Source: Indioceanicola profundi (GTDB lineage: Bacteria; Pseudomonadota; Alphaproteobacteria; Azospirillales; Azospirillaceae). Taken from it: a stretch of 64,000 nt of DNA. Position 1 is the first letter of the stretch, and each line of letters opens with the position of its first letter. The notes beneath the pieces are model-generated. The model was given only the letters and a program-made list of their open reading frames with translations, was not told the DNA's origin and ran no database searches. Made by a program: the position numbers and the translations under genes. Shown piece by piece: positions 15,046-36,385 of this stretch. The DNA is taken from the NCBI RefSeq assembly GCF_003568845.1, contig NZ_CP030128.1, forward strand, positions 62,001-126,000, in the 5' to 3' direction.

Positions 15046-15627
15046 CTATCTGCGGAGCTTTCCCGGGTCGCTCTTCCAAGATTGGAAGCTGGAGTACTCG
15101 TATATCGATTTGTTGACCCGGAGCTCCTCCCGCCCGCTGCCGACGGCCATGTCGGCGTCGACGTATGGGTAGATGCCCAGGTACTCCTGACCGGCGAATG
15201 TGCTGGCCGGTCTCTTTACCACCGGCAGGATCGCGACAGCCCCCTTGCGGCCGTCAAAGAACCCCAACTCCCACGGCATCCACTTCGACGAAGGCGAGTT
15301 CTCGGTATGCATGTAGAGGAGCGATTCAGATTGCAGCATGCGGGTTCGCAGCACGCGGGCGGTGTCCGGCGTGACCGACTCCCGTGACAGCTGCGCGTCG
15401 ACGATCCAGTCGACGTAGACCACCAGCCCCTTGTCCTCTAGCTCCAGCCTGGCCCCGTCCACGAGCTCCGCGTCCTTTATGGAGTGGCTCAGGAACACGT
15501 CGAAGTGATCCGTCCTGGACGCCGCGGCTACGGCCTCGTTCAAGCGCTGGGGAGCCGGTTTGTAGGAACGCTGGAACTCGCGTTGAGCCCTTGCCCTAAG
15601 CCGCTGTTCTGTAAGGAGCGCCATCAT
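15046..15627 (-). CDS. TIR-domain protein divergent from Thoeris
   Basis: A 193-residue protein from the ATG at 15627, with GAGG just upstream; a longer frame to 15750 adds Cys/Arg-rich residues without a ribosome site. Residues about 40-165 are a TIR domain: FDVFLSHSIKDAELVDGARL, then VYVDW, and MPWELGFFDGRKG with the Glu expected for NAD+ cleavage. It differs in sequence from the ThsB next door and belongs to the general bacterial TIR type. It is divergent from thsB across 255 bases, so both may share a control region. I infer a second signal-generating TIR for the same effector; independent function is possible. Confidence 0.8.
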   Translation of the reverse strand: MMALLTEQRLRARAQREFQRSYKPAPQRLNEAVAAASRTDHFDVFLSHSIKDAELVDGARLELEDKGLVVYVDWIVDAQLSRESVTPDTARVLRTRMLQSESLLYMHTENSPSSKWMPWELGFFDGRKGAVAILPVVKRPASTFAGQEYLGIYPYVDADMAVGSGREELRVNKSIYEYSSFQSWKSDPGKLRR

Positions 15628-15706
15628 GTCCCTCGTGCCAGGTTGATCCGCCACGGCGGTCGCCTCGGCAGTTTTCCGCTCCACGGTTAAGAATTTACTG
15701 CCCGCT

Positions 15707-15721
15707 CCGCCGTAACGGCGG
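15707..15721. promoter_or_regulatory. 15-base palindrome in the divergent TIR/thsB intergenic region
   Basis: CCGCCGTAACGGCGG reads nearly the same on both strands (seven-base arms around one base). It lies 80 bases before the TIR gene start and 162 before thsB, a position suited to an operator. No regulator gene is adjacent. Confidence 0.3.
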
Positions 15722-15882
15722 CAACGGCAGGCGGGGCGCCCTCCAGGCATCCGCCGGAGGATACCCCGCTAATGCCCCTGCATCCAGATTGCGCATGACA
15801 ACGTTGGTGCCGGGCATCAGAATGGACGAACGTTGGCCGTCCGTGGGCCCAGTCCCCGGCGGCACGCATACGGGAGTTCGGA

Positions 15883-16569
15883 TTGTCGCGCCTGCTCGGG
15901 ATGGGGATCCTCGCCGCGCTTGGCTACGTCTTCAAGGATGACATCGCCATGTTTTTCAACGCGCCCACCACCATGCGGTGGGTCTATTTCAGCTTCCATT
16001 TTGATCGCGACGTGATGCGGCTGCACCAAGTCAAGAACCACTGGGTGACCAAGCCCAACCGCAAGGAAGCGGGTTACTTCGACGGCTCCCTCGAAGAATT
16101 GGCGAAAAAGGAAGGCTCCGTGGCCGTCAAGCGCGCCATCAACAAGGGTCTGGCCGGATCATCCGTCACATGCGTCCTGATTGGCACCGAGACCTACGAG
16201 CGCCGGTGGGTGCAGTACGAAGTCTTCAAGAGCATCGAGAAGGGGAACGGGATTTTCGGCGTACGGGTCCACGACCTCAAGGACCCCCGGACCCGGAGCA
16301 CGGACCCCGAAGGCCCGAACATCTTTGACTATCTTGGCTACGGCTGGAGCGAGCGCTCCGCCAAACTCGTGCCCAACGTGCTGGAGAACGGGAAGTGGGC
16401 TGTCTACGACGATGCCGACCCTATTCCCGCCTCCTCGGCGACTTACCTGACGGCAGGGACGACTCCCACGCTATCGGACCTTTTTCCTGTTTACGACTGG
16501 GTGCAGGACGACGGGTACAACAACTTCGCGACATGGGTTGACGCGGCGGCAAGACACGCCGGTCGCTGA
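15883..16569 (+). CDS. thsB: Thoeris ThsB (TIR-like, DUF1863 type)
   Basis: A 228-residue protein. From residue 31 it follows the ThsB pattern closely: MRWVYFSFHFDRDV, then NHWVTKPN, SVTCVLIGTETYERRWVQYE with the catalytic Glu, KSIEKGNGIFGVRVH, GPNIFDYLGY and a C-terminal VYDWVQDDGYNNFATWV. ThsB proteins sense phage and make a cyclic ADP-ribose isomer that activates ThsA. I chose the TTG at 15883 because GGGAG lies six bases upstream; this gives a 30-residue extension with a short hydrophobic run absent from classical ThsB. An ATG at 15973 would match the usual start but has no ribosome site. ThsA follows after about 110 bases. Confidence 0.9.
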   Translation: MSRLLGMGILAALGYVFKDDIAMFFNAPTTMRWVYFSFHFDRDVMRLHQVKNHWVTKPNRKEAGYFDGSLEELAKKEGSVAVKRAINKGLAGSSVTCVLIGTETYERRWVQYEVFKSIEKGNGIFGVRVHDLKDPRTRSTDPEGPNIFDYLGYGWSERSAKLVPNVLENGKWAVYDDADPIPASSATYLTAGTTPTLSDLFPVYDWVQDDGYNNFATWVDAAARHAGR

Positions 16570-16679
16570 CCGGCCCACCGGCCCGGGCGCTCGAACATTG
16601 TGCGTCCGAGCCGCCAGGGCGCCCACTGGCCTTGGGGATCCAAGGGCAACATGGCGGGTCCGCAACCAAGGGATTTGCG

Positions 16680-18143
16680 GTGCACAAAGACAAATTCATC
16701 GAGGCGCTCGCGGAAAGGTTCCGGGCCGGAACGATCAGCGTCTTCATCGGCGCAGGCCTGTCACGCCCGGCCATGTATCCCGACTGGGCCGGACTGCTGA
16801 AGGACATAGCGCAGGAGATCGGCCTGGATGCATCGCGCGAGGACGACCTTCCCGGCCTCGCGCAGTTCTACCTGAACCACAAGAGCAACGCGCGCACCCG
16901 CATTACCGAACTGATCGTCAAGGAGTTCCCGGAGAACCGCGGGATTCCCCGGTCGTTCCGCATCCTTGCGCGCCTGCCGATCCCTGAGCTCTGGTCGACC
17001 AACTACGACACGCTGCCCGAGCGCGCCTGGGCCGAGGCGAAAAAGCAGATGGAGGTGAGGCCCAACCAAGCGTCCCTGACCCGGCCACATGCTGGCGCGC
17101 ATACCGTCTTTTACAAGATGCACGGCACCGTCCGGGAACCGGAAGGCATCGTGCTCGCGAAGGAGGATTACGAGCTTTACCGGGCCAGGAGACCCGGTTT
17201 CATCCCGTTGCTCACGAGCCGCCTCACCACGACGAGCATGCTGTTCCTGGGCGTCGGCTTCCGGGATCCAAATCTCTCGCACGTGTTCGCGGCCATCCGC
17301 GAAGCCAATCCGGACCGTAACCATCAGTCGCATTTCACGATCCTCCGCAGGCCCCCCAAACCGCAGGGCGGGGGCAGGAAAGACCGGGAGAAGCATGAGT
17401 ACGACACGAAGCGCCACGAGCACCTGGTGAGGGACCTAGCCCGCTACAGCATCGAGGTTCTCGAGATCGACCGTTTCGACGAGATCGAGGAGGTGCTTGC
17501 CGCGGTCGAGCGGCGGCTCTTCCTCGAAAGCGTCCTCGTCTCCGGCAGCTTCCCCTTGCATGACACCGAGCCCGGCGATCCGCTACGCCGCAAATTGCTG
17601 GTAGAGACATCCACCGAGCTTGGTCGCCTCCTCGCTTCCAGCGGCAAGCGGATCGTGAGCGGCTTTGGCCTGACCGTCGGCGCCGCGCTCCTGTCCGGCG
17701 CCCTTGAGGAACTCTACGCGGCGGGTTCGCCCAACCTGGACCGGTCGTTGCTGTTGCGGCCTTTTCCCCAGAGCGGGCCGAACCTCGCCGACCTTCAGGC
17801 CCGCTACCGCGAGGACATGCTCGCCCAGGCGGGCATCGTTGTGTTCGTCGGGGGAGAGAAGGACGACGAGGCCATGGGCGGTGGTTCGCGGAGGATCACC
17901 GCGAACGGGGTCATTTCGGAATTCGAGGCGGCAGCGGCCTCGGGACGCCACGTCGTCCCGTTGGGCGCCACGGGCGGCGCTGCCGCGCAGATAGCTGATC
18001 GCATAGCGGACGATTACGACCGCTACATGGGGGCGCTGCCGCGCGCCCTCTTCGACGCGCTCAGAGCAACTGATGCGTCCGGACGCCAGCTTGCCAAGGC
18101 CGCTATGACCGTGGTGGACTGGTATTCCAGCCGCGGAAGCTGA
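16680..18143 (+). CDS. thsA: Thoeris ThsA effector (SIR2-SLOG NADase)
   Basis: Depletes NAD+ when the SLOG domain binds the ThsB signal, stopping infected cells. From a GTG at 16680 (AAGGGA about six bases upstream) the protein has 487 residues, close to the 476 of Bacillus cereus ThsA. The SIR2 part shows GAGLS (24-28), STNYD with Asn108 and KMHG with His148, the pair equivalent to the known catalytic Asn112/His152. The SLOG part begins near residue 295 (VSGSFPL), with IVSGFGLTVGAALLSG and later GATGG. An in-frame ATG at 16632 would add 16 residues with no support. It completes a type I Thoeris locus. Confidence 0.93.
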   Translation: MHKDKFIEALAERFRAGTISVFIGAGLSRPAMYPDWAGLLKDIAQEIGLDASREDDLPGLAQFYLNHKSNARTRITELIVKEFPENRGIPRSFRILARLPIPELWSTNYDTLPERAWAEAKKQMEVRPNQASLTRPHAGAHTVFYKMHGTVREPEGIVLAKEDYELYRARRPGFIPLLTSRLTTTSMLFLGVGFRDPNLSHVFAAIREANPDRNHQSHFTILRRPPKPQGGGRKDREKHEYDTKRHEHLVRDLARYSIEVLEIDRFDEIEEVLAAVERRLFLESVLVSGSFPLHDTEPGDPLRRKLLVETSTELGRLLASSGKRIVSGFGLTVGAALLSGALEELYAAGSPNLDRSLLLRPFPQSGPNLADLQARYREDMLAQAGIVVFVGGEKDDEAMGGGSRRITANGVISEFEAAAASGRHVVPLGATGGAAAQIADRIADDYDRYMGALPRALFDALRATDASGRQLAKAAMTVVDWYSSRGS

Positions 18144-18429: not shown

Positions 18430-21030
18430 CTAAGCGCAGATCGTGAAGCGCGCGCCGTTGACGTTCTCGATGCGCATGCGCCCGTTGATCTGATCGAGCA
18501 TGGCTTTCACCACCCGCATGCCGAGCCCGCCCGGGCCAACGCCTGCAACGAGATCGGCCGGGAAGCCGCGTCCTTGGTCGGAGATCACCATGCACACGCA
18601 ACCGTCCGCATCGGGGCTGATCCTGACCTCCACGCTCCCGGTCTGTCCCGGCGGGTAAGCGTACTTGATAGCGTTGGTGATCAGTTCGGCCGCGATGATC
18701 GATATCCCCACGGCCTTGCGGTACGGCATCATCAGGCCCTCGCCGGCTCGGACCACCAAGTCTCGCCCGTCCCCGGCAATCGGGGCGAGGTCCTCGCATA
18801 ATCGCCTGATGGTCTGCCCGATATCCACCTCCTCCACATTCTCAGCCTGATAAAGGCTGCCATGAACCCGCGCGACGCTCATCACCCGGGCATAGGCCTC
18901 TTGCAGCGCCGCCGCGCTGGACGGATCGCCAGCCGCCCGCGCCTGCATCTGGAGGAACGAGGCCACAATCTGGAGCGAGTTCTTGACCCGGTGGTCGACC
19001 TCTCGCACCAAGACGTCCTTCTGGGCAAGGAGCTTTTCCTTGTCGAGAAGGACGGCGATGAGTTCCTCCTGCTTGGCGTTCAGGGTGGCGATCTGCCGGT
19101 TCTGACGCCAGACCACGCCATCGAGGGCATCAGCAAGAGCCTTGGCGATGTCCAGGTGCCACGTCTCCCAGGGGGTGCTCGATCCTGCCTTTTCCTCCAA
19201 CCATCGCTCGAAGCTGCGGCGGGGCAGGACCGCCGTGCCGCCATCGGGCGCCTCCCCCACCGGCCGGCGGGGATCGCCGCCCCAGGCGACGGTCCTCACC
19301 ACCTCGTGCCTGAACCAGAGCAGCGCCCGCCGACGGTCCGGACTGAAGGCGGCCAGGAGCCCGCTGGCCATACTGCGGTAGGCGGCAGCCTGCGGGTACA
19401 GGTGGGACAGGTGCTCCGTAGCGAAACTTGTCTGGGCTGGCTCTTGGCCGAGGAGCCAATCCACCAGGTCCAGCACTTGGCCCTGGTCCGGTGCCGCACC
19501 GAGCAAACAGACCTCGCGATCGTCCACGATCGCCGCGCCGGTCGCGTCGAACAGGTTCAGCAGGGTGACGGGACCATGCAGGAGCGCTCCGGCCAGATCC
19601 TCCGCCCCGGCCATCCGGTCCAGCAGAGCCGCCTGGGCAGCAACATGCTGTCGATAACGGCGGGAGAGGTCATCAGCCTGGACGCCCTCAAGGCGCAAAC
19701 TGAACGCCTCGACCAACGTCGACACCGCGGCACGAGTTTCCGGGGCCACATAGTGGGGCTGCCTATGGTGGCCAATCACCAGGCCCCAGAGCCGTCCGTC
19801 GACGATGATGGAGGCTGACATTGACCCGTTCACACCCAGGTTCCGCTGGTACTCCAGGTGGCTTGGCGACAGGCTCCGGGACGTAGCGAAACTGAGGTCG
19901 ATGGGGACGCCTTCGAGGCGATCCCCTGGGAGCAAGGGCACCGGCGCGTAGTCGCGGTCGACCACGAAGCGTGGCGGGGCGATGACATACAACGCCCTGG
20001 CCTGGGCCGGGATGTCGGAAGCAGGAAAGCGCAAGCCGAGGAGCGACTGTTCCCAGTCTTCAACTTTGCTCTCGGCAATTGCATCGCCGTTCCAGTCCCG
20101 GTCGAAGCGGTAGACGAGCACCCGCTCGAAACCCGTCAGCGCCCTGCCCTCCTCGACAACCGCCTGTGCAAGCTCCTTGGCATCGGTCACGGACCGCAAT
20201 CGTGACACGGCGTTGCGAACAGCGGCCCGACTGGGCACGGCGAAGTCACGGTCCTGCGGAACACGTTCGAGCTCGACCAGGATGTTGCCTGCATGCTCGT
20301 GAACACTTGCCAGGTAGTCGATCCCGCCAAGCTGGATTGGAAGCTGGACCTGACGGGCCGGACCGGGCGCCAGATCAGCACGAGCCCGGACCTGGGTGAT
20401 TTCCGAGGTGAAAGTTGCCGGGAACAGATCGCCCAGCACGCGCCCGATGAGGTCGTCAGCTCCGCAGCCGAATGCCTCCCCGGCGTTGGCGCTGCATGCC
20501 CGAACGCACCAAGTCACCGGGTCGGCGACGAGCAGCGCCATGTGGGGCTGAATCGCTCCCGGCATATGGATCGTCTCTCGGGCGCAAGCACTCAGGGTCT
20601 CCTGTTCGGCCGACGCGTTCTGCTCAATGGCGGGAACTGCCGCCCTTGTGCGCTTCTCGAGGTATTCGAGCGGCCTGACGGTGATCCAGAAGCGGTCCGG
20701 CGACCGGGCTTTCCACATCGTGACAGCGACCCGGACCGGGCGTGGCGTAAAGCTGAACGTGTACACGAAACTCTCATCCAAGGCGCCGCTGCGCACGCCT
20801 TGGAGGAAGCGGCCGTGGAAGGCGGGTAGGTTGGTGCAAGGCGCCACCTCGCGGAAGAAGTGACGGCCCAGCACCTCCTCCGGCCGCCGGCCCGAAAAGC
20901 GGCTCTCCGCGGCATTGTAACGGGTTACAATTCCACGGCCGTCCAGCTGGATCACACCAAAGCTGAGGGCATCCAAGTCGGCGTCGGCAAGGGTGTCGAG
21001 GTCTGCACCGCCATCCGGACACGTCGGCAT
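18430..21030 (-). CDS. ppr: PYP-phytochrome hybrid histidine kinase (Ppr)
   Basis: A two-colour photoreceptor kinase of about 866 residues. Residues 1-125 align without gaps to photoactive yellow protein: Tyr38, Glu42, Arg48 and chromophore Cys65 (VAPCT) correspond to PYP Tyr42, Glu46, Arg52 and Cys69; Met100 is replaced by Pro96. A bacteriophytochrome module follows: biliverdin Cys149 (ACARETIHMPG), GAF with PASDIP (Asp339), His391 (SPSHLEY) and GHH at 420-422, then a PHY tongue motif PRRSFERW near 604. The kinase is HisKA_2 type with His680 (DHRVKN). R. centenum Ppr has the same order and 884 residues. The start could instead be the ATG at 21048. A lone receiver gene lies upstream. Confidence 0.93.
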   Translation of the reverse strand: MPTCPDGGADLDTLADADLDALSFGVIQLDGRGIVTRYNAAESRFSGRRPEEVLGRHFFREVAPCTNLPAFHGRFLQGVRSGALDESFVYTFSFTPRPVRVAVTMWKARSPDRFWITVRPLEYLEKRTRAAVPAIEQNASAEQETLSACARETIHMPGAIQPHMALLVADPVTWCVRACSANAGEAFGCGADDLIGRVLGDLFPATFTSEITQVRARADLAPGPARQVQLPIQLGGIDYLASVHEHAGNILVELERVPQDRDFAVPSRAAVRNAVSRLRSVTDAKELAQAVVEEGRALTGFERVLVYRFDRDWNGDAIAESKVEDWEQSLLGLRFPASDIPAQARALYVIAPPRFVVDRDYAPVPLLPGDRLEGVPIDLSFATSRSLSPSHLEYQRNLGVNGSMSASIIVDGRLWGLVIGHHRQPHYVAPETRAAVSTLVEAFSLRLEGVQADDLSRRYRQHVAAQAALLDRMAGAEDLAGALLHGPVTLLNLFDATGAAIVDDREVCLLGAAPDQGQVLDLVDWLLGQEPAQTSFATEHLSHLYPQAAAYRSMASGLLAAFSPDRRRALLWFRHEVVRTVAWGGDPRRPVGEAPDGGTAVLPRRSFERWLEEKAGSSTPWETWHLDIAKALADALDGVVWRQNRQIATLNAKQEELIAVLLDKEKLLAQKDVLVREVDHRVKNSLQIVASFLQMQARAAGDPSSAAALQEAYARVMSVARVHGSLYQAENVEEVDIGQTIRRLCEDLAPIAGDGRDLVVRAGEGLMMPYRKAVGISIIAAELITNAIKYAYPPGQTGSVEVRISPDADGCVCMVISDQGRGFPADLVAGVGPGGLGMRVVKAMLDQINGRMRIENVNGARFTICA

Positions 21031-21382
21031 TGCACTTCCATTCCTCATTCGCCTCACGCTACCGATGCGGCGGAAGTCAGCGAAGCATCCAGCCAAAGCG
21101 GGAGCAATGTGGGGTCGGACTCCTCCTTCGAAGTGCCCGCCCCTAAATCCCTGCCTACGCACCCCAGCCTAGGCGCGCATTAACATAGGATAACCGCGGG
21201 CGCCGCTCCTCCGGCTACCAACGAGCGCTTGTATGAGACGCCCTGGCAAGACGTCGCGCCGGAATGCCGAATCCCATCGGACCAATGGATGCCGTCCGAA
21301 GCCTTTTCGATAAGGCCGCAGGACAGCGGAGTCCTTTCGGGAGCACCCAACAGGAGCCTGGCCCCTCCGCTACACAAGTGAA

Positions 21383-21775
21383 TCACCGCTTTAGCTCGCT
21401 TGCGAGGCGGCTTGTCAACACTACGGCTGGCGTTGGCTTCGCATAGATCGGCACTTGCGGAAACCGGACCCTGACCTCCGGGGGCAAGGCCGTTCCGGTA
21501 TGGACGACCACCGCCGCCGACCTCTCGATCAAGGCTTCCAGAACTGGCCCGACATCCCCGTCTGGAAGGTTCACGTCCAGGATCGCGGCCTTGATGTCCT
21601 GGGCCTTCACCATTGCCAACGCCTGCCGCACCGTTGCCGCGGGACCAACCGGCATGCCATTCGCGTCCTCAACGGCATAAACAAGGTCCATTGCGATAAA
21701 CGGCTCATCCTCGACGACGAGCACTTCGGCCCTGCCAAGGCTTGGATGAACGATGTCGGACTCAAGTTGAGCCAT
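21383..21775 (-). CDS. Single-domain response regulator
   Basis: A receiver domain of about 130 residues without output. Numbered from a GTG nine bases upstream (21784), acidic residues ED-E are at 25-27, the acceptor is Asp70 (AILDVNLPDG) and the conserved lysine is Lys116 (AKPT). The usual Thr/Ser region reads VVVHTGT. The gene follows the six-PAS kinase by about 50 bases on the same strand and precedes ppr by about 335 bases, so either kinase could be its donor. Neither candidate start has a strong ribosome site. Confidence 0.85.
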   Translation of the reverse strand: MAQLESDIVHPSLGRAEVLVVEDEPFIAMDLVYAVEDANGMPVGPAATVRQALAMVKAQDIKAAILDVNLPDGDVGPVLEALIERSAAVVVHTGTALPPEVRVRFPQVPIYAKPTPAVVLTSRLASELKR

Positions 21776-21831
21776 ATTGCACACTTACGTTAATGCGCTT
21801 CCGCATGACAACCAACGTTTCCCCCGCCAGT

Positions 21832-24800
21832 TCACTTTCCGAGCCGCTCGAGCGAGGCTACCAATGTGATCTCGGCACCTATCGTCCGCCAGGCATACAA
21901 TATAGTACCATTCAGTTGACTGCCCATCCCCATGCGGGCCAGCCGCGATCCGAAGCCTTCGCGGGCGGGCGGGGCGTCCACGGCCGGCCCGCCAACCTCC
22001 TTCCAGGTCACAGTCAACTGGCCCTCGGCGGAGGCCCAAGCGACATCCAGGCATCCTGCGGGCGTGGAGAGCGCACCGTACTTGGCTGCGTTGGTGGCAA
22101 GCTCATGGAGCACCAGCGCGAGGCTGGTTGCGGCCGTCGGCCCAATGCGCACATCCGGCCCCCCGCTGCACAACCGGCCCGTGTCCGGGGGAAGATGGGG
22201 GGCAAGAATGGCCTTCACGAGCTCGTCAAGCGAGGTGGTCTCGTCTCCGAAGCTGATCCCGGTCACCGCGGGCCGTATGAGCTCATGGGCCTGCGCCAGC
22301 GCCATCAGCCTGCCGGTCAGCGCCGAAGCCATGTCGCGGACGCTGCTGGCCGAGCGCGCCGTCATGTTGACCATGCCTGTAGTGATCGAGAAGAGGTTCT
22401 TGACGCGGTGGTTGAGCTCGCGGACGAGAAGCTGCCGGTCGTTCTCGGCCCGCTTGCGCGCGGTCAGGTCCGTGGAGGTCCCGACCAGGCCGACAACAAT
22501 ACCCTGTTCATTCCTGAACGCAGCCTTGTGGGAGAGCCAAATGCGTGGGCCATGTTCGTCATGGCCGACAACCTCTTCAAGCTCCTCCGTCAGCCCGGCC
22601 TCCATGATGCGGCGGTCGGTCGCCATGACCCGGGCGGCCTGTTCCGAGTCGTCGAGGAACTCGAGATCCGAGCGGCCCTCGACTTCGCCCCAGGGCTTGC
22701 CGATCAGGTCCAGGACCGGGCCGTTGGCGATCTGCATGCGGCCCTCCCGGTCCTTCACGTAGATGAGGGCCGGCACGGCATCGATCACGGCCTTGAACAG
22801 GCGCATGCGCTCACGGGCCTCGACCTCGCTCCGCCAAAGTCTATCCTCGGCCTGCTTGCGGTGCTCGATGTCGATGAGCACGCCCGGGAACCGGAGCGGT
22901 CGACCGTTGCTGTCGAGATCGCAGCGACCGCTCGCCTCGATCCAGCGACACAAGCCGTTGGGCTGGAGGACCCTGTACTCGGCGCTGAAGCTCCCGCCCT
23001 GCTCCAGGGCGGCGGCGATCAACGCTTCCACACGCGCCTTGTCCCCGGGATGGATAGAATCCGTCACCGCATTGAGCGGCAAACCCTTTTGGCATTGCTT
23101 CGGGTCCAGGGCGAAGGCGTGCGCGAAACGCTCGTCCGCCGTGAGACGGTCGGCCTGGATATCCCAGACCCAGGTGCCGACGATGGCGCCGCTGTTGAGC
23201 GCCAGTTCGATGCGCTCGTGCGCCTCACGCAACGCCGCCTCGGTCCGGCGATTTCTGTCTATGTCGAGGCAGGCCACGACGCCTCCTGCGACCCGGCCCG
23301 CCTCGTCCAGGATCGGGGCCGCGATCAGGCGCACCCAGGTTTTCCGGACGGCGTCTCGCTGATAGAGCACTTCGAGTTCGGACTGCTTCTCCGCCCCCGC
23401 AATGACGCGCGCCAGGGGATATTCCGCCGCAGCCACCTCGCGCCCATCCGGGTGGTAGCATGCCCAACTGCCATAGTCGCTGATGCCAGACGACGGGAGA
23501 ATCGGGCGCCCGAAAATGCTTTCGGCCTGCTTGTTCCCTCCGACGATGCGCCCTGACGGGGCATCGGCGATGATTATGCCCACCGGCACCGTATCCAGGA
23601 TCGCCTGCAGCCGCCGCTGGCTAACCGCCAGCGCCTCCTCCGTCCGCTTGCGGTCGGTGATGTCGATCGCGACGCCGGGGAAGCGGACAGGCCTGCCCTC
23701 CCCGTCCATGAAGCACTGCCCGCGGGCCAGCACCCAGCGCTCTGTCCCGTTCAACGCAACGACCCGGTACTCAGCGGTGAAGTCGCCGCCGCAGGCAAGA
23801 GCCCGCTGGATCTGAGCGCGGACGCGGTAACGGTCTTCCGGATGGATCCCAGTTACGTACGAGGCGATAGGCAGGCCCTTGGCCGCCTTCACGGGGTCGA
23901 CGCAGTAAAGGGCCGCAAAAGCAGCATCGGCAACGAGGCGGTCACCCTGGATATCCCAATTCCATGTGCCGACGCCGCCAGCGGCCTCGAGCGCGAAGCG
24001 GAACCGTTCCTCGCTGTCCCGGAGGGCCGCTTCCGCCTGCTTCAAATCATGGACATCGGTACATGTCCCGTGCCAGCGAACAATCCGGCCTGCCTCGTCC
24101 CGCTCAGGTTGGGCGCGGCCAATCACCCAGCGGTACTCGCCGGAGCGATGCCTCAGCCGGTACTCGACATGATAAGGCTCGCCGGTGGAGAGAGAATGAC
24201 GCCACCGTGCCCAGGCGTGCTCCCGATCGTCAGGATGGAACATATGGCTCCACCCTCTCCCATCCGTAGAGCCCTCGGGCACGCCGGTGAACTCGTACCA
24301 ACGGCGGTTGTAATACTCGTGGTAGCCGTCCGGCCGCGCCGACCAGATCATCTGGTCGACAGAATCGGCAATGGCTTGAAATCTGCTCTCTGAACCCAGC
24401 AACGTGGCGGAAGCCTGCTGGTCGGGACCGGCCACGCGGCAGAGTACGGTTATCCCGGATGCCATTCCATCCGCCGACGCAATGGGAACTGCCGTGACCG
24501 CGATGCCAACCGCGGTACCGTTGCCGTGCCGGTGGACAGCCTCCGCCTCCACCTTCTCACCGGCAAGCGCGCGCGCCAGTATAGCGTCCGCCGCATCAGG
24601 GAAAAGGTCGGGCAGCAGCTTGCTGGCGGTTGCGCCGATGGCACTGGCCTGCGAGTGGCCGAAAAGGCGGGTTGCCGCGGGATTCCAGCTTACAATGCGC
24701 TTGTCTGCCGCGGCAATGCCGATAATCGCGTCAGACGACAGGTCCAGGACGACAGCCAGCTGTGCCTTCCGCTCCTCTTCGCCCCACCCGATGGCTCCGC

Positions 24801-24846
24801 TGCAGGAAGTTCGGTGCAGCGTGCTGGTCGACGGAGTGGATGTCAT
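21832..24846 (-). CDS. Multi-PAS HWE histidine kinase
   Basis: A soluble kinase of 1004 residues with about six PAS/PAC units in tandem; the second holds the SVDQMIWSARPDGYHEYYN type sequence shared with other kinases here. The HWE core has phospho-acceptor His813 (LNHRVKN), the N box LHELATNAAKYGALS and W-x-E in VTWKEVGGP. There is no receiver and no membrane helix. AAGGG lies five bases before the ATG. Several PAS units resemble each other (two GTWNWDIQ/GTWVWDIQ blocks), pointing to internal duplication. The stand-alone receiver just downstream is the likely partner. Confidence 0.9.
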   Translation of the reverse strand: MTSTPSTSTLHRTSCSGAIGWGEEERKAQLAVVLDLSSDAIIGIAAADKRIVSWNPAATRLFGHSQASAIGATASKLLPDLFPDAADAILARALAGEKVEAEAVHRHGNGTAVGIAVTAVPIASADGMASGITVLCRVAGPDQQASATLLGSESRFQAIADSVDQMIWSARPDGYHEYYNRRWYEFTGVPEGSTDGRGWSHMFHPDDREHAWARWRHSLSTGEPYHVEYRLRHRSGEYRWVIGRAQPERDEAGRIVRWHGTCTDVHDLKQAEAALRDSEERFRFALEAAGGVGTWNWDIQGDRLVADAAFAALYCVDPVKAAKGLPIASYVTGIHPEDRYRVRAQIQRALACGGDFTAEYRVVALNGTERWVLARGQCFMDGEGRPVRFPGVAIDITDRKRTEEALAVSQRRLQAILDTVPVGIIIADAPSGRIVGGNKQAESIFGRPILPSSGISDYGSWACYHPDGREVAAAEYPLARVIAGAEKQSELEVLYQRDAVRKTWVRLIAAPILDEAGRVAGGVVACLDIDRNRRTEAALREAHERIELALNSGAIVGTWVWDIQADRLTADERFAHAFALDPKQCQKGLPLNAVTDSIHPGDKARVEALIAAALEQGGSFSAEYRVLQPNGLCRWIEASGRCDLDSNGRPLRFPGVLIDIEHRKQAEDRLWRSEVEARERMRLFKAVIDAVPALIYVKDREGRMQIANGPVLDLIGKPWGEVEGRSDLEFLDDSEQAARVMATDRRIMEAGLTEELEEVVGHDEHGPRIWLSHKAAFRNEQGIVVGLVGTSTDLTARKRAENDRQLLVRELNHRVKNLFSITTGMVNMTARSASSVRDMASALTGRLMALAQAHELIRPAVTGISFGDETTSLDELVKAILAPHLPPDTGRLCSGGPDVRIGPTAATSLALVLHELATNAAKYGALSTPAGCLDVAWASAEGQLTVTWKEVGGPAVDAPPAREGFGSRLARMGMGSQLNGTILYAWRTIGAEITLVASLERLGK

Positions 24847-29408: not shown

Positions 29409-31436
29409 CTACCGCCGGTCTGGCTTCGTGGCTGCGCGTTCATCCGTAAGCGCCAGCACCGTTTCCCTTAGCGCCCATACGTCCACTGGCTTGGTCAGCA
29501 GCCGCAAACCTGCCTCGTGGGCTCTCCGGAGGGTCCGCGGCCTGGTATCCCCGGTCAGCAGGACGGAGGCGGAGCCCGCTGCCCGTGCTGCCTCTATCGC
29601 ATCAAACCCGTCGCCGTCCGGCAGCTGGAAATCCGAGATGACCACACCGAACCGCTCCCGTGCCAATTCCTTTCGCGCATCCGCAACGGAGTGCGCAACG
29701 GTGGCCTCCAGCCCCCAATCCTCCAAGGTCATGGACAGGGCCGCCGCCACCATCCGGTCGTCTTCTACGATCAGAACCTTGTGTGCTGCCAGAGCTCTTT
29801 CCTGGCATCGCGGCAACGGCGGCGGGGCGGTCTCCCTTCCCTCCGGAACCCAGACGCTGAACGTCGACCCGCACCCGGGACTTGAGCGCACCTCCAGTTT
29901 GTGCTCCAGCACAGCAGCCGCGCGCCGGGCCGTGGACAGGCCCAGTCCAAAGCCCGTTGACCGGCTCTCCTCTCCCAGCTGCGCGAAATCGTCGAAAATC
30001 CGCTCCAGGTGCTCCGGCCGTATGCCCGGTCCGGTATCGGTGACGTCTATGCGCACCCACCCCTCCTCGCGCACGCATGCTACGGCCACCTCGCCGGATT
30101 CGGTGTACTTCACGGCATTGGAAATCAGGTTGCGCAGGATGAGCTCCAGCAGCAGGCGATCGCTCCGCACGGTAACGGTGGTCGGCGGCACCCTGAGCGA
30201 CAGCCGCGCCGCGCGCGCAGGTCCCTCGAATTCTACCCCCAACCTGTGCAGCAGTCCCTGGAGCGCGAAGGCTTCCAGCTTTGGCTGGACCACGCCCGCC
30301 TCGAAGCGGGCCGTTTCCAAAAGGCCGTTCAACATGCCGCGCAGGCCCTCCAGGGACAACGAGGCCATCTCCACGAGGCCGCGGAGATCCGGATCCTGCA
30401 CGCGGCTCTCCAGCAGCCCCAGATACAGGCCCGCCGCCATCGCGGGTTGGCGCAGGTCATGGCTCGCAGCGGCCAAGAAACGCGACTTGGCCCGGTTGGC
30501 GTCCTCGGCGACGGTGCGCGCCCGCTCTGCCTCGTCGCGTGCCGCCTTTAGCGCCTCCTCCGCCTCCCGCCTCGCGGTGACGTCCTGGACAGCACGGATG
30601 GCGTGCAGGAAGCGTCCATGCCCGTCCCGGACGGCTGTGACCCGGACCTCCGCCCACCAGCGACGGCCGCCCTTGCTGGTATAGGGCCGCTCCTCGGCGT
30701 AGCTGTCCACCTCGCCCCGGATCAGGCGGGCGAAGTTGTCGTGCGCTTGGACCCGGTCGTCCTCTCCCTCAATGGAATCAAAGAAAGTCCGCCCGTCGAA
30801 GTCCGCGAGCACGTAGCCGGTCACCCGGGTAAACGTCTCGTTGATGAAAAGGTAATGGCCTTCGGCATCCACTTCCTGGATGCCGACCCCGACATTGGCC
30901 TGCGTTGCCCGGAGACGCAGATCCTGCTCATGGCGCGCGAGCACCGCTTTGGTGGTTTCCGAGATGATCACCAGCACGCCGCCGACGCCGTCCGGGGCAT
31001 CTGGGTCGGCGATCGGGCCGTAGCTGTAGGTCCAGTAGACTTCATCCTGCTTGCCATGCCGGACGATGGACACCAGCTGGTTCTCATGCCAGGTCGGCTC
31101 TCCGCCAGCCATGACCTGGTCGATCTGGGGGCCGATGATGGGCCAGATCTCGGGCCAGGCATCCTGCCCAGGCGCCCCCAGGATGGCCGGATGCTTTTCC
31201 GGCCCAAGCGAAGCCGCGAAGCCGTCGTTGTAGAAGCAGATGTGCTCAGCACCCCAGAAGACGTGAACGGGATGCCGGGTGCTGAGCATGATCCCGATCG
31301 CCGTTTTCAAGCTTTGTGGCCAGGCTTCCACCGGCCCCAGGGTCGTACGCGCCCAGTCATGCGACCGGAGCAGCGCTCCCATGGTCCCGCCGCCCGTCGG
31401 CCATACCTTCCGGGCCGCATCTCGGTCAGACGCCAT
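29409..31436 (-). CDS. PAS-PAS hybrid histidine kinase with receiver
   Basis: About 675 residues from the ATG at 31436. The N-terminal PAS has LRSHDWARTTLGPVEAWPQSLK, close to the kinase at 26.3 kb. A second PAS with PAC (about 155-285) precedes a coiled linker and a classical HisKA domain with His326 (AASHDLRQP). The ATPase domain shows NLISNAVKYT, DTGPGI and GFGLGLS; the receiver has its acceptor in ISDFQLPDGDG and lysine in TKPVD. The SHDLRQP box is typical of a hybrid kinase group that often works with small receivers. It is the only classical HisKA kinase here. An upstream ATG at 31454 lacks a ribosome site. Confidence 0.88.
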   Translation of the reverse strand: MASDRDAARKVWPTGGGTMGALLRSHDWARTTLGPVEAWPQSLKTAIGIMLSTRHPVHVFWGAEHICFYNDGFAASLGPEKHPAILGAPGQDAWPEIWPIIGPQIDQVMAGGEPTWHENQLVSIVRHGKQDEVYWTYSYGPIADPDAPDGVGGVLVIISETTKAVLARHEQDLRLRATQANVGVGIQEVDAEGHYLFINETFTRVTGYVLADFDGRTFFDSIEGEDDRVQAHDNFARLIRGEVDSYAEERPYTSKGGRRWWAEVRVTAVRDGHGRFLHAIRAVQDVTARREAEEALKAARDEAERARTVAEDANRAKSRFLAAASHDLRQPAMAAGLYLGLLESRVQDPDLRGLVEMASLSLEGLRGMLNGLLETARFEAGVVQPKLEAFALQGLLHRLGVEFEGPARAARLSLRVPPTTVTVRSDRLLLELILRNLISNAVKYTESGEVAVACVREEGWVRIDVTDTGPGIRPEHLERIFDDFAQLGEESRSTGFGLGLSTARRAAAVLEHKLEVRSSPGCGSTFSVWVPEGRETAPPPLPRCQERALAAHKVLIVEDDRMVAAALSMTLEDWGLEATVAHSVADARKELARERFGVVISDFQLPDGDGFDAIEAARAAGSASVLLTGDTRPRTLRRAHEAGLRLLTKPVDVWALRETVLALTDERAATKPDRR

Positions 31437-31698
31437 AGGCCGGTCCCGGTTCATTATTGGGCAAAAGCATGGTGGGGGGCATGGGACCTTGAGGAAGAGT
31501 CTATTCCGGACTTCGGTGGTACTGAATTGGGCCACCATTTCATACCACATTGATACATCGGCCTGGTATTCCCATGTATGCGTCGCCTACACGCATGGAA
31601 AGGCGTCGCGGCAGAAGTTCATTGCTCCCGCAGCTGGCCACGCACATCGGCGCGGTTCGCCGCTCTCAACACTGGACGCAGTCGTCGTGAATGGCGCC

Positions 31699-34600
31699 TC
31701 AACCGATTTGGTGCTTCGGCTCCCTGGCGACCAGCCTTGCCAAGGCCGCTTCCAAGGCCGACCTTGAGAACGGCTTGCCCAACCGCGGCAATTTCTCCAC
31801 GTCCGCGTCCGTGACGTCCTCATAGCCGGTGCATAGCAACACCGGCACGCCACGCGCGTGTAGTTTCCGCGCCAGGGCAAGCGATGACTGCCCGTGCAGG
31901 TTCACGTCGAGCACGGCCGCATCCAGTTCGGCGTCACGCGCCAAGCGCTCGGCATGCGCAAGGGACAGGGCCGGGCCTACAACGTCACACCCCAACTTGC
32001 GCAAGGCATCCTCGAGCTCCATGGCGATTAGGGCTCCGTCCTCCACTACCAGGACCCGCCGGGGGAGACTAAGGGGAACGGCACCGTCCTGTGGTTCGCT
32101 GGAGGCGGATGCAGCCGCAAAGGTCCAGTGCTCTGCCGGAAGCCGCATCTCCAGATAGAGCCCTGCCGGGCGCCAGTCGAGGGTCAACCGGCCACCCAGT
32201 TGCTCCTCGATGCTGGTGCGCACCAGCAGCGACCCGAAGCCACTCCGCGTCGGCGGTTGCACAGGTGGTCCGCCGCGCTCCCGCCAGAGCAGGACCAGAT
32301 CGCCCTCGGGCGCAATGTGCCATCCTACGTCCAGTCGCCCGGCCTCAGTCGAGAGGGCGCCATACTTGGCGGCATTGGTCGCGAGCTCATGCAGGGTGAG
32401 CCCGATAGGAAGGACGGCGTCGGCGACAAAGGTTATATCGGGTCCGGACACGTTGGCCTGCGCTGGCGAAACCATATCGAGCTCCTCGGCGAGCAGGGCC
32501 GCGAGGCGTCCGCCCGTCCACCTGTCCCGGGCCAGCAGGGAATGCGCGCGCGCCATGGCCGCCACCCGGCCTTCGATCGCCTCCGCGAACTCGGCCTTCG
32601 TGTCGGCCCGGGTGAGCCGCACCAAGGACAGGACCACGGCCAGAGCATTCTTGGCCCGATGATCCACTTCCCGCATCAGCAGCTGCTCACGCTCCTCCGC
32701 CCTCTTACGCTCGGTGATGTCCATATCGACGCCACGGACGACTGCCGCACGTCCGTCCAGACCGGGTTCAGGACGGTACCGGGTGAGCAGCCAGCGGAAC
32801 GTGCCGTCCGGCAGCACCGCACGGAACTCCACGTCCAGCGGACGCGGGTTTTCCACCAGGTCCATGACGGCTGCCACGGCGCGGGACTGGTCATGGGGAT
32901 GCAGAAGCGAGATCGAGCGTTCCAGGCTGTAGGGTCCCTCCGCCGGGTTCCGGCCGTAGAGTTTGTAGAGGGACGCCGACCATCGCATCACGTTGGCCCT
33001 GACATCCCATTCAAAGGTGCCGACACCTGCAGCCTCCTGGGCCAGTTCCAGACGCGTCCGGCTGTCCGCGAGCTCCGCCTCGAACCGCTTCTGCTCCTCA
33101 ATGTCGGTGCATGTCCCGTACCACCGGACGATCCGGCCATCCGCATCCCGCTCAGGCAGGGCCCGCCCGATGAACCAACGGTATGCTCCATCTTTGGACC
33201 GCAACCGGTACTCCATTTCGTATAGGTCACCAGTCGCGAGTGAATTGTGCCAAACCTGCCGGGTGCATTCCCGGTCGTCGGGGTGGAAAAGAGCGAGCCA
33301 TGCATCGCCATCCGCCTCACCCTCACCAGCACCCGTGTACGCATACCAGCGGCTGTTGAAATAGTCGTGGTAGCCGTCCTGCCTGGTAGACCATACGATC
33401 TGCGGCATGGAATCAGCCAATGCCCTGAATCGCTGCTCACTCTGGCGAAGGGCCTCCTCCGCGCGCCTGCGGCTAGTGATGTCCTCGACAGTGACAGCGA
33501 TGCGGCCCGGCTCTCCGGGCAAAGGCGCGCAGGTGAGGCGGGCGGTGACGCGCCGTCCGTCCCGGTGCTGGAAATCCTTCTCGTACGGATCCCACCAGCC
33601 GCGCTCGCGGATCTGCGCCACGGCCCTCTGGCTCACCTCGATGAACTCGGGCGGTGTCGTGTTCCGCCAGTGCCATTCGCCGCGATTGAACTCCTCCCGG
33701 CTGCCCCCGGTGATCTCCAGCAGGCGGTCGTTGACCGCCAGCGCCTGATCAATGTTCGCGTCATAGATGGCCATGCCCATGACCCGGGACTCGAACACCC
33801 CGCGGAACCGGGCCTCACTTTCCTTGAGGGCAGCCTCCGCCCTGCGCTGATCCTCCACGTCCAGGAAGGCGCACACAACCGCTTCGGGGGGCTCACCGGG
33901 CGGGCCGACGGGAGCCGCGCGGACCGACAGGCGACGCGTGGTGCCATCCCGGCGCCGGTACAACAGGTTGCTGTCCTCCACCCGCTCGCCGAGGAGGACA
34001 GCGCGGGCCGTGGGATACTCCTCCGGCGCGTACAGGCGACCATCCGGATGCAAACCGCCATAGGCGCCGTAGCCCCCGACATCGTCGGCCGGAAGCAAGG
34101 GATGGCCAAGGATCTCCTCGGCCGCGCGGTTGTAGGAGAGGATGCGGCCGGAGGGAACTTCGGTGACGATCAGCCCGACGGGCATCTGCTCGAGCACCAA
34201 CTCCAGGCGGGCACGCTCCATCCTCAGGTCCGCGAGCAGTTCCTCCCGCTCCGCCTGTGCCGCCCTCCACGCGGTGATGTCCTCGACGGAAAGGGCGACC
34301 TGGCCGTGTCGCCCGGGAACCGGCGTGGAATGCAGCCGCACCCAGATCCGTGTCCCGTCCCGCCGCGCATACTCCTTCTCGAAACTGTCTGCCCAGCCTC
34401 TTTCCCGGATCTGCGCGGCAGCACGCTCGTCCATGGGCAGGTACTCGGCCGGGGTCACGGCACGCCAGTCCATCTCGCCGCGGTCGAATTCCTCCCGCGT
34501 GTAGCCCAGCAGGTCCAGGAGCCGGTCATTCGCCGCGAGGGTCTCGCCGGTCACGGCGTCGAAGATGCTGACCCCGGTTACCTCCGCATCGAAAACCCCC

Positions 34601-35070
34601 CGGAAGAATGCCTCCCGCTCAAGGACGCGCTCACCGTCTTCCTCTACCTGACGCGTCGCGGTCACGTCCCTTGCAATTCCCAGTACCCCGAGCACCTGCC
34701 CGTCCGGGCCGCGCACGGGCGACTTCGTCGTGGAGAAGATGGACCGGACACCATTGATGGTGACGGGCACATCGTAGGTGACCGCAGTGCCGGCCTCCAG
34801 GACGTGGCGGTCACCCTCCCGGAAACGGGCCACATCCTCGCCGCTGTGGAACTCCGCGTCCTGCCGGCCGATGAACGACTCTGCGGAGCACCCGTGGAGC
34901 CTGGCCCCGTACTCGTTCATAGCCAGATAGCGGCCGCTCCTGTCCTTGACGAAGATCGCTGCGTCGGCGGTGCTCAACAGACTGGCGAGCATCGCGCGCA
35001 AGGCGCCCTCGTTCAGGTCGGGGTCGATGCCGTCTGCGGCGGCCCATGCGCTTATTGTCGGGAAGTCCAT
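31699..35070 (-). CDS. Large multi-PAS HWE hybrid kinase with receiver
   Basis: About 1123 residues from the ATG at 35070; an ATG at 35160 is an alternative. It holds about six PAS/PAC units, including two adjacent copies of a VTGVSIFDAV/VMGMAIYDAN type and one SMPQIVWSTRQDGYHDYFN unit almost identical to that in the kinase at 1.8-4.1 kb. The HWE core has His804 (DHRAKN), LHELATNAAKYGALS and LLWRERGGP. A C-terminal receiver ends the protein (AVLDVNLHG). Its last 600 residues follow the 1.8-4.1 kb kinase closely, so the two are recent paralogues differing in their N-terminal sensors. Confidence 0.9.
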   Translation of the reverse strand: MDFPTISAWAAADGIDPDLNEGALRAMLASLLSTADAAIFVKDRSGRYLAMNEYGARLHGCSAESFIGRQDAEFHSGEDVARFREGDRHVLEAGTAVTYDVPVTINGVRSIFSTTKSPVRGPDGQVLGVLGIARDVTATRQVEEDGERVLEREAFFRGVFDAEVTGVSIFDAVTGETLAANDRLLDLLGYTREEFDRGEMDWRAVTPAEYLPMDERAAAQIRERGWADSFEKEYARRDGTRIWVRLHSTPVPGRHGQVALSVEDITAWRAAQAEREELLADLRMERARLELVLEQMPVGLIVTEVPSGRILSYNRAAEEILGHPLLPADDVGGYGAYGGLHPDGRLYAPEEYPTARAVLLGERVEDSNLLYRRRDGTTRRLSVRAAPVGPPGEPPEAVVCAFLDVEDQRRAEAALKESEARFRGVFESRVMGMAIYDANIDQALAVNDRLLEITGGSREEFNRGEWHWRNTTPPEFIEVSQRAVAQIRERGWWDPYEKDFQHRDGRRVTARLTCAPLPGEPGRIAVTVEDITSRRRAEEALRQSEQRFRALADSMPQIVWSTRQDGYHDYFNSRWYAYTGAGEGEADGDAWLALFHPDDRECTRQVWHNSLATGDLYEMEYRLRSKDGAYRWFIGRALPERDADGRIVRWYGTCTDIEEQKRFEAELADSRTRLELAQEAAGVGTFEWDVRANVMRWSASLYKLYGRNPAEGPYSLERSISLLHPHDQSRAVAAVMDLVENPRPLDVEFRAVLPDGTFRWLLTRYRPEPGLDGRAAVVRGVDMDITERKRAEEREQLLMREVDHRAKNALAVVLSLVRLTRADTKAEFAEAIEGRVAAMARAHSLLARDRWTGGRLAALLAEELDMVSPAQANVSGPDITFVADAVLPIGLTLHELATNAAKYGALSTEAGRLDVGWHIAPEGDLVLLWRERGGPPVQPPTRSGFGSLLVRTSIEEQLGGRLTLDWRPAGLYLEMRLPAEHWTFAAASASSEPQDGAVPLSLPRRVLVVEDGALIAMELEDALRKLGCDVVGPALSLAHAERLARDAELDAAVLDVNLHGQSSLALARKLHARGVPVLLCTGYEDVTDADVEKLPRLGKPFSRSALEAALARLVAREPKHQIG

Positions 35071-35082
35071 GCTTATCGGATT

Positions 35083-35099
35083 GCCGCCAAAAAGGCGGC
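35083..35099 (-). promoter_or_regulatory. Hairpin just upstream of the large kinase start
   Basis: GCCGCC and GGCGGC form a six-base stem around five A/T bases, ending 13 bases before the ATG at 35070. No clear ribosome site is visible, so the stem may shape translation initiation. If the true start is 35160 it lies inside the gene. Confidence 0.3.
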
Positions 35100-35313
35100 T
35101 TCTATCATGTTCCGCAACAGGCCTACGCTTGCCAATGAGTGGTAGAGGGGCTTCCGGCATGTTCCTGCATCCGGGTCGGTACCCTTGGCGCCTGCCTATA
35201 CGGAACGGTACCCATGGCGGCGCTTCCGCGCCTGCATGAGATGCTCCAGGCGGGACAAGTGCTCCTGTTCTCTGTTGTGAACGGCTGACGGATGGTTGCC
35301 GTCTCCAGAACTG

Positions 35314-35344
35314 AAGACCGCCGCTCATCGGCGGTCTTTTCTTT
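35314..35344 (+). terminator. Strong Rho-independent terminator without an assigned gene
   Basis: AAGACCGCC (35314-35322), loop GCTCATC, GGCGGTCTT (35330-35338), then TTCTTT. The T-run is on the plus strand, yet no plus-strand gene ends upstream: both flanking genes are read leftward. It could end a small RNA from within 35165-35313. As a reverse terminator for the gene at 35.4-36.4 kb it would lack a T-run. Confidence 0.75.
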
Positions 35345-35368
35345 GGCAGTGCCGCCGCTCTGCTGCTC

Positions 35369-36385
35369 CTAACCTGTGGCCTGCCGGACAATCTCCCCCA
35401 TGAGGGTCAGCACCCCCCGGTGTACGGCCAACGGCATACCATCAGCACTGGGTGTTGTATACCCGGACATTCCGTCGATAAGCCCGGCGTCCGCGCTGGC
35501 CGTGAGCAGGCGGCTTTCCGCATCCGGCGTGTGGAGCAGGTCCAGGTTACCACTCGCCGCCGCGAGGCAGGCGGCGACCGCATATGCCCCCCAATTCGAA
35601 ACGGCCGCCGTCACCAGCACCTCGACTTTGGTGACCGGCGCCGGATCCCGCCCGACCTTTTCGGCAGCGCGGCTGAGCACGCCGCCCAGCTGATCCCGGA
35701 TGCTGCCGAAGCCGAGCTCATTGCCGCCGTCCCCGATCCCGACGGTCAGAAGGCACCGGTCCCGCGCCTTCCTGAACAGAGCATCGAACTTCGGGGTCGC
35801 CTCGGTCGCCGGAGTGCCGCGGAATGTGTGGATTTCCCCTTCGCTATCCTCCCCCCCAACCTCCACGGAAATGAGGGCAGTGGGTTCATAGGCGTTCAAC
35901 AGGTGATCGGCGTGGGCCTCCGCCTCCTGGCGGTTGCGCGGAAACCGGAGGACAGCGGCTCCATGGATGGGCGACGGAGCCTTCTTCATGCCCGCGACCG
36001 CCTCCTCGATGCGCAGGGTGCTGAGCCCAGCCGCGCGCACCACCTGCGATATCGGCCCGATCAGGTCCTCCTCGGTGAGGAACACCGGAATTGCGCCGGT
36101 TGCCTTGTGCAGGGCAAGTCCGAGCACCGCAGCCCCCGGCGGGCCGTCCGTCTCGGCGATCCTGGAATTCACGCCCTGGCGGTCATGCCAACCGCTGGCC
36201 AGGAACACGGCCCGACCCGCCCGGCATTGCTCCAGCAGCCTTTGTGCAGCAAGCAGGCAGGGCGGTCCGCCCTGCGCCTCCCAGGCGGCTTGTGCCAGCT
36301 GATCGACCGAGCCGCGCCCCGAGATGTCCAGGTTGCTCAGGCAATGCAGGCGGACTCCTACATCCGTAAGGACGGATTTCTCCAT
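35369..36385 (-). CDS. DUF4392 / D-glutamate-cyclase C-terminal-like protein
   Basis: A 338-residue soluble protein. GIGDGGNELGFG (about 222-233), followed by a Ser/Ala-rich Rossmann-type tail (VTAAVSNWGAYAVAA), is the hallmark of the glutamate cyclase domain family. The earlier segments AVFLASGW, GPPGAAVLG and PVFLTEEDL also fit. In animals the related enzyme converts D-glutamate to 5-oxo-D-proline; bacterial members are mostly untested, so the substrate here is inferred. The gene stands alone between the orphan terminator and a divergent chemoreceptor. Confidence 0.75.
   Translation of the reverse strand: MEKSVLTDVGVRLHCLSNLDISGRGSVDQLAQAAWEAQGGPPCLLAAQRLLEQCRAGRAVFLASGWHDRQGVNSRIAETDGPPGAAVLGLALHKATGAIPVFLTEEDLIGPISQVVRAAGLSTLRIEEAVAGMKKAPSPIHGAAVLRFPRNRQEAEAHADHLLNAYEPTALISVEVGGEDSEGEIHTFRGTPATEATPKFDALFRKARDRCLLTVGIGDGGNELGFGSIRDQLGGVLSRAAEKVGRDPAPVTKVEVLVTAAVSNWGAYAVAACLAAASGNLDLLHTPDAESRLLTASADAGLIDGMSGYTTPSADGMPLAVHRGVLTLMGEIVRQATG

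Follow-up and report, generated by a model that had tools for sequence, protein, structure and literature searches.

The question raised by this locus is whether one gene of Indioceanicola profundi joins two working light sensors, blue and red, to a single histidine kinase, and how the two inputs would then be used. The gene lies in the window, i.e., the whole stretch of 64,000 nucleotides analysed here (C3:62001-126000 of a 5.37 Mb genome in four contigs). The earlier note placed a Ppr-type double photoreceptor at 18430-21048, and these coordinates are correct: the minus strand carries an 872-residue open reading frame with no internal stop. An ATG start puts the upstream (5') end of the gene at 21048, and the first GTG further upstream would move it to 21162. 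None of the candidate starts has a good ribosome-binding site ahead of it, and the true start may lie upstream of the ATG, as far as 21162. Ppr, a PYP-phytochrome-histidine kinase, was first described in Rhodospirillum centenum. The layout of the window gene and of the nearest regulator is as follows.

18430..21048 (-): ppr-like gene, 872 aa, PYP–PAS_2–GAF–PHY–HisKA_2–HATPase_c (Pfam and NCBIfam)
20674..21000 (-): PYP domain, residues 17-125 (TIGR02373, NCBIfam)
20836-20838 (-): codon of Cys71, equivalent to PYP Cys69
20743-20745 (-): codon of Pro102, in place of Met100
20266..20586 (-): phytochrome PAS domain, residues 155-261
20584-20586 (-): codon of Cys155, predicted to bind biliverdin
19696..20181 (-): phytochrome GAF domain, residues 290-451, with Asp345 of PASDIP, His397 and His428
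19102..19638 (-): PHY domain, residues 471-649
19210-19224 (-): PRRSF tongue motif, residues 609-613
18784..19002 (-): HisKA_2 dimerisation/phosphoacceptor domain, residues 683-755, with His686
18439..18705 (-): HATPase_c domain, residues 782-870, with N-box Asn792
21383..21784 (-): single-domain response regulator (Pfam), ~335 bp upstream of ppr on the same strand

The Pfam and NCBIfam matches are far beyond chance, with E-values of 2e-38 for PYP (TIGR02373), 5e-45 for PHY, and 1e-22 for HisKA_2. The PYP part scores 131–136 bits, short of the TIGR02373 equivalog cut-off of 143 bits, as do most fused PYPs; the seed of that model consists of four PYPs only (PMC9664959). In phmmer searches of the PDB, the first 130 residues match best to 1MZU (4e-38), which is the PYP domain from R. 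centenum Ppr, and residues 144–647 match bacteriophytochromes (1e-93). The AlphaFold2 model, built from 26 sequences, has all domains folded, with a mean pLDDT of 79.6; the PYP core and most of the phytochrome exceed 80, and the linker (residues 133–158) and tongue (residues 590–616) are low. Foldseek matches the model to full-length and photosensory-module bacteriophytochromes in the PDB. Thus, domain order, residues and the 1MZU match bear out the assignment to the Ppr kind.

The alignment also recovers every chromophore residue that had been listed for the protein. Tyr44, Glu48, Arg54, and Cys71 correspond to PYP Tyr42, Glu46, Arg52, and Cys69, and the biliverdin Cys, the PASDIP Asp, the GAF His, and the PRxSF tongue are all in place. 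Arg52 does not define the family, for which a consensus of Leu52 has been published (PMC12826048). The rest of the pocket is kept as well, i.e., Ile31, Tyr42, Glu46, Phe62, Val66, Ala67, Pro68, Cys69, Phe92, Phe96, and Trp119 in PYP numbering. Two further positions deserve attention. Position 50 is Ser (Ser52 in the window protein), and position 100, which is Met in H. halophila PYP, is Pro102, a replacement absent from the earlier residue list. At the level of sequence, both the blue and the red site appear intact. Photochemistry requires these conserved residues, but they do not guarantee it. The window protein is best described as a genuine, apparently functional double photoreceptor kinase and a new member of Ppr.

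We consider it likely that the product is a Ppr of HisKA_2 subtype, a histidine kinase with two light inputs in which a slow-reset blue domain may modify a red/far-red switch. The proposed workings are as follows. Blue light would be sensed by the N-terminal PYP domain, with p-coumaric acid bound at Cys71; absorption is predicted near 434 nm from the Ser at position 50. With biliverdin bound at Cys155, the PAS-GAF-PHY module would interconvert between red and far-red forms. The helical linker would carry both signals to the HisKA_2 kinase, where autophosphorylation of His686 would be followed by phosphotransfer to a response regulator, possibly the upstream one. The lit PYP state is predicted to reset slowly since Met100 is Pro, so the blue domain, instead of acting as a rapid sensor in its own right, may have a long-lasting modifying effect on the red/far-red switch.

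PYP-phytochrome hybrids had been called rare, a claim that does not survive a scan of genome contigs. That scan gave ~46 further full-length PYP-phytochrome proteins, most of them ~50% identical to the window protein, from Methylobacterium, Methylorubrum, Roseomonas, Belnapia, Dankookia, Paracraurococcus, Sphingomonas, Arenibaculum, and Aerophototrophica, plus one protein of the Ppd kind from a Chromatiaceae MAG. Within the family of I. profundi, three more genomes contain Ppr-length PYP frames. A published survey has 52 PYP-PHY fusions, 37 of them with a histidine kinase (PMC12826048). The kind is therefore known and not rare, and rarity is ruled out as a ground for interest; the integrity of the blue site remains informative despite the commonness of the kind.

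Three groups of relatives can be compared with the window protein. R. centenum Ppr (Rhodocista centenaria; a relative whose Ppr contains the 1MZU sequence was taken to be this one) shares the order of PYP, phytochrome, and kinase, the chromophore residues, and Ser50, at 38–39% identity over the whole protein. It differs in having a classical HisKA domain and Met100, where the window protein has HisKA_2 and Pro100. Its PYP absorbs at 434 nm, recovers in 50 s, and regulates the kinase (PMC12826048). The HisKA_2/HWE fusions of Methylobacterium, Roseomonas, Belnapia, Sphingomonas, and Arenibaculum are closer, at ~50% identity, and match the window protein in architecture, kinase type, and absence of Met100, but about half of them lack the PYP pocket that the window protein keeps. 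The Ppd proteins of Thermochromatium tepidum and Chromatiaceae (PYP-phytochrome-GGDEF/EAL) share the PYP and phytochrome input but have a c-di-GMP output and no kinase; in the Chromatiaceae relative Met100 is kept and Glu46 is Gln.

Kinase type and position 100 go together. Classical HisKA kinases are found in the R. centenum and Aerophototrophica fusions, and HisKA_2/HWE kinases in 45 fusions, including the window protein. Among these 45, Met occurs at position 100 in none, the residue being Pro in 40, Thr in 2, Ser in 2, and Glu in 1; where the pocket is intact, Pro100 and Ser50 occur together in 20/20. Met is found in both HisKA fusions, in Ppd, and in 14 other PYPs, namely 13 stand-alone PYPs and a divergent third PYP of the I. 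profundi genome. In the phytochrome tree the HisKA_2 fusions form one clade (99/99), with Arenibaculum and the window protein branching first. Because they are one lineage, the Met100 loss is probably one evolutionary event rather than 45, and Pro100 may be compensated by other changes.

Loss of Met100 in H. halophila PYP slows recovery by orders of magnitude, and the slow dark recovery predicted for the window PYP is an extrapolation from that protein. A mutagenesis scan of H. halophila PYP placed Met100 among the residues that most affect color or recovery, it has been named a candidate for natural tuning, and the two Ser50 PYPs that have been measured absorb at 432–434 nm (PMC12826048). We found no open paper on an M100A mutant. 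The lineage-wide Met100 loss is presented here as new; a search of the openly available literature gave no mention of it.

Is the blue site, then, in use? Across 49 aligned fusions, one row with a broken frame aside, no member lacks the biliverdin Cys, PASDIP Asp, GAF His, or kinase-column His, and PRxSF is missing only from the Ppd type. The PYP pocket, however, is intact in 23/49 (the window protein included) and lost in 25/49, with Glu46Gln in the Ppd. In the 25 lost pockets Cys69 and Glu46 are always gone together, with Tyr42 gone in 23 and Arg52 in 24. Cys69 loss in methylobacterial Ppr has already been reported (PMC9664959). To this we add that the phytochrome tree requires two losses, one on the Methylobacterium/Methylorubrum branch and one in Sphingomonas jatrophae, and that divergence is confined to the PYP part. 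That is, mean identity to the window protein in the PYP part is 59% for intact-pocket and 40% for lost-pocket fusions, whereas the phytochrome (49 and 50%) and kinase (54 and 54%) do not differ, so the PYP part alone diverges where the pocket is lost. We tentatively suggest, as a possible but doubtful history, that replacement of Met100 in the HisKA_2 branch let blue light be stored for minutes or longer and gate the red/far-red switch, and that this slow step preceded pocket loss in Methylobacterium and S. jatrophae.

Use of either site presupposes chromophore. The earlier note proposed looking elsewhere in the genome for tyrosine ammonia-lyase, coumarate ligase, and heme oxygenase; all three were found, so both chromophore routes exist. 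A locus at C3:216867-220672, on the same contig as ppr and ~134 kb from it, encodes a stand-alone PYP (194 bits), a PYP-type coumarate-CoA ligase (343 bits, over the curated cut-off), an aromatic ammonia-lyase, and the divergent third PYP. The lyase is the tyrosine ammonia-lyase candidate: its substrate-selectivity pair is His-Leu, whereas that of the genome's other three lyases is Ser-His, the pair of histidine ammonia-lyase. In the PDB the candidate matches best to 2O6Y, which we take to be the Rhodobacter tyrosine ammonia-lyase and which the PDB labels a putative histidine ammonia-lyase. The third PYP, very divergent, follows the lyase gene (C3:216867-217160; L012 1001-1375) and keeps Tyr42, Glu46, Cys69, and Met100, with Ala50 and Leu52.

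Since the lyase and ligase belong to a stand-alone pyp operon, their products may have no role in loading Ppr. Among fusion-bearing genomes, 8/47 have a full-length PYP-type ligase, with a small PYP frame beside it in 8/8; of the 22 genomes searched in which the Ppr pocket is intact, 17 lack the ligase, R. centenum being one of them. The ligase thus tracks stand-alone PYP genes, which makes the pair weak evidence of a loaded Ppr and rules it out as proof. From the sequence, the ligase shows that the cell can activate p-coumarate and says nothing firm about the loading of Ppr.

The genome has a single heme oxygenase match, on contig C1, and none beside ppr. Heme oxygenase has been said to be always a neighbor of ppr (PMC9664959); contrary to this, the two are unlinked in I. 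profundi, R. centenum, and Arenibaculum, although close together in many Methylobacterium genomes. Heme oxygenase is a usual companion of Ppr, not a defining feature. The genome also has a second phytochrome on contig C2 (L078 8967-11210), with a classical HisKA-like kinase and Asn at the His290 position, adjoining an HWE hybrid kinase. It could be the client of the heme oxygenase.

The main rival to a dual-light sensor holds that in vivo the phytochrome half alone is active and that the PYP domain, though folded, is unloaded, either a structural cap or heading to loss as in Methylobacterium. The frequent loss of the pocket in fusions that keep the phytochrome site, the disappearance of Met100 throughout the HisKA_2 lineage, and the many intact-pocket genomes with no PYP-type ligase all fit this reading. 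We nevertheless judge it unlikely for the window protein, which keeps every listed pocket residue from Ile31 to Trp119 and whose PYP identity to the other intact members is high, in a genome that encodes both synthesis of the acid and its ligase. A PYP domain turned redox or other non-light sensor has been proposed for some methylobacterial Pprs with Y42C/S50C (PMC9664959). For the window protein, which has neither substitution and keeps Cys69, such a role is very improbable.

Because the genome also encodes a stand-alone PYP and another phytochrome, the PYP part might be supposed to have been copied recently from the former and fused to a local phytochrome. This is scarcely credible: the PYP tree sets all Ppr PYPs apart from stand-alone PYPs (100/98), so the PYP part is not such a copy, and the window phytochrome sits in the 99/99 Ppr clade, far from the second phytochrome. 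A single origin of all Ppr fusions is compatible with the PYP tree and disfavored by the phytochrome tree (AU p 0.016, for a group chosen after the tree was seen and with long branches). In the same phytochrome tree, three phytochromes with no PYP domain (L126, L128, and L130; L126 with a HisKA_2-type kinase) fall close to Ppr. Either a loss of PYP or a lineage older than the fusion could account for them.

The dual-light sensor that we favor would act outside photosynthesis. The phototroph R. centenum and Aerophototrophica have a photosynthetic reaction-center gene (Photo_RC), but none was found in the I. profundi genome, so control of photosynthesis is not the role of the sensor in this host. 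The target of R. centenum Ppr is chalcone synthase (PMC2993699), and one gene of the chalcone/stilbene-synthase family is present in I. profundi, on contig C1. Few dual-colour receptors of the Ppr/Ppd kind have been measured (R. centenum, T. tepidum), and the literature search found none of HisKA_2 type. As an early-branching member with an intact pocket, chromophore enzymes in the genome and no reaction center, the window protein is a good candidate for blue and red sensing outside photosynthesis. It is also suited to asking whether Met100 loss gives a long-lived blue signal.

The response regulator at 21383..21784 is a possible phosphoacceptor partner of Ppr. It also lies 47 bp after a kinase gene with five PAS domains and an HWE kinase (21832-24846), so its partner could be either kinase, and no homologue of it was found beside other ppr genes. 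Apart from general PAS kinases, none of the window's neighbors recurs next to other ppr genes, and a plasmid search with the region gave no match. Two further large ORFs with PAS-kinase similarity lie at 29409-31550 and 31699-35391. In Belnapia mucosa (L121 9543-12234), a frameshift or a sequencing error divides the PYP-phytochrome gene between two frames. On the other side of ppr, Thoeris-like defence genes occupy 15046-18143: ThsA (SIR2-STALD) at 16632-18143 (+), a ThsB-like TIR gene at 15883-16569 (+), and a second at 15046-15750 (-).
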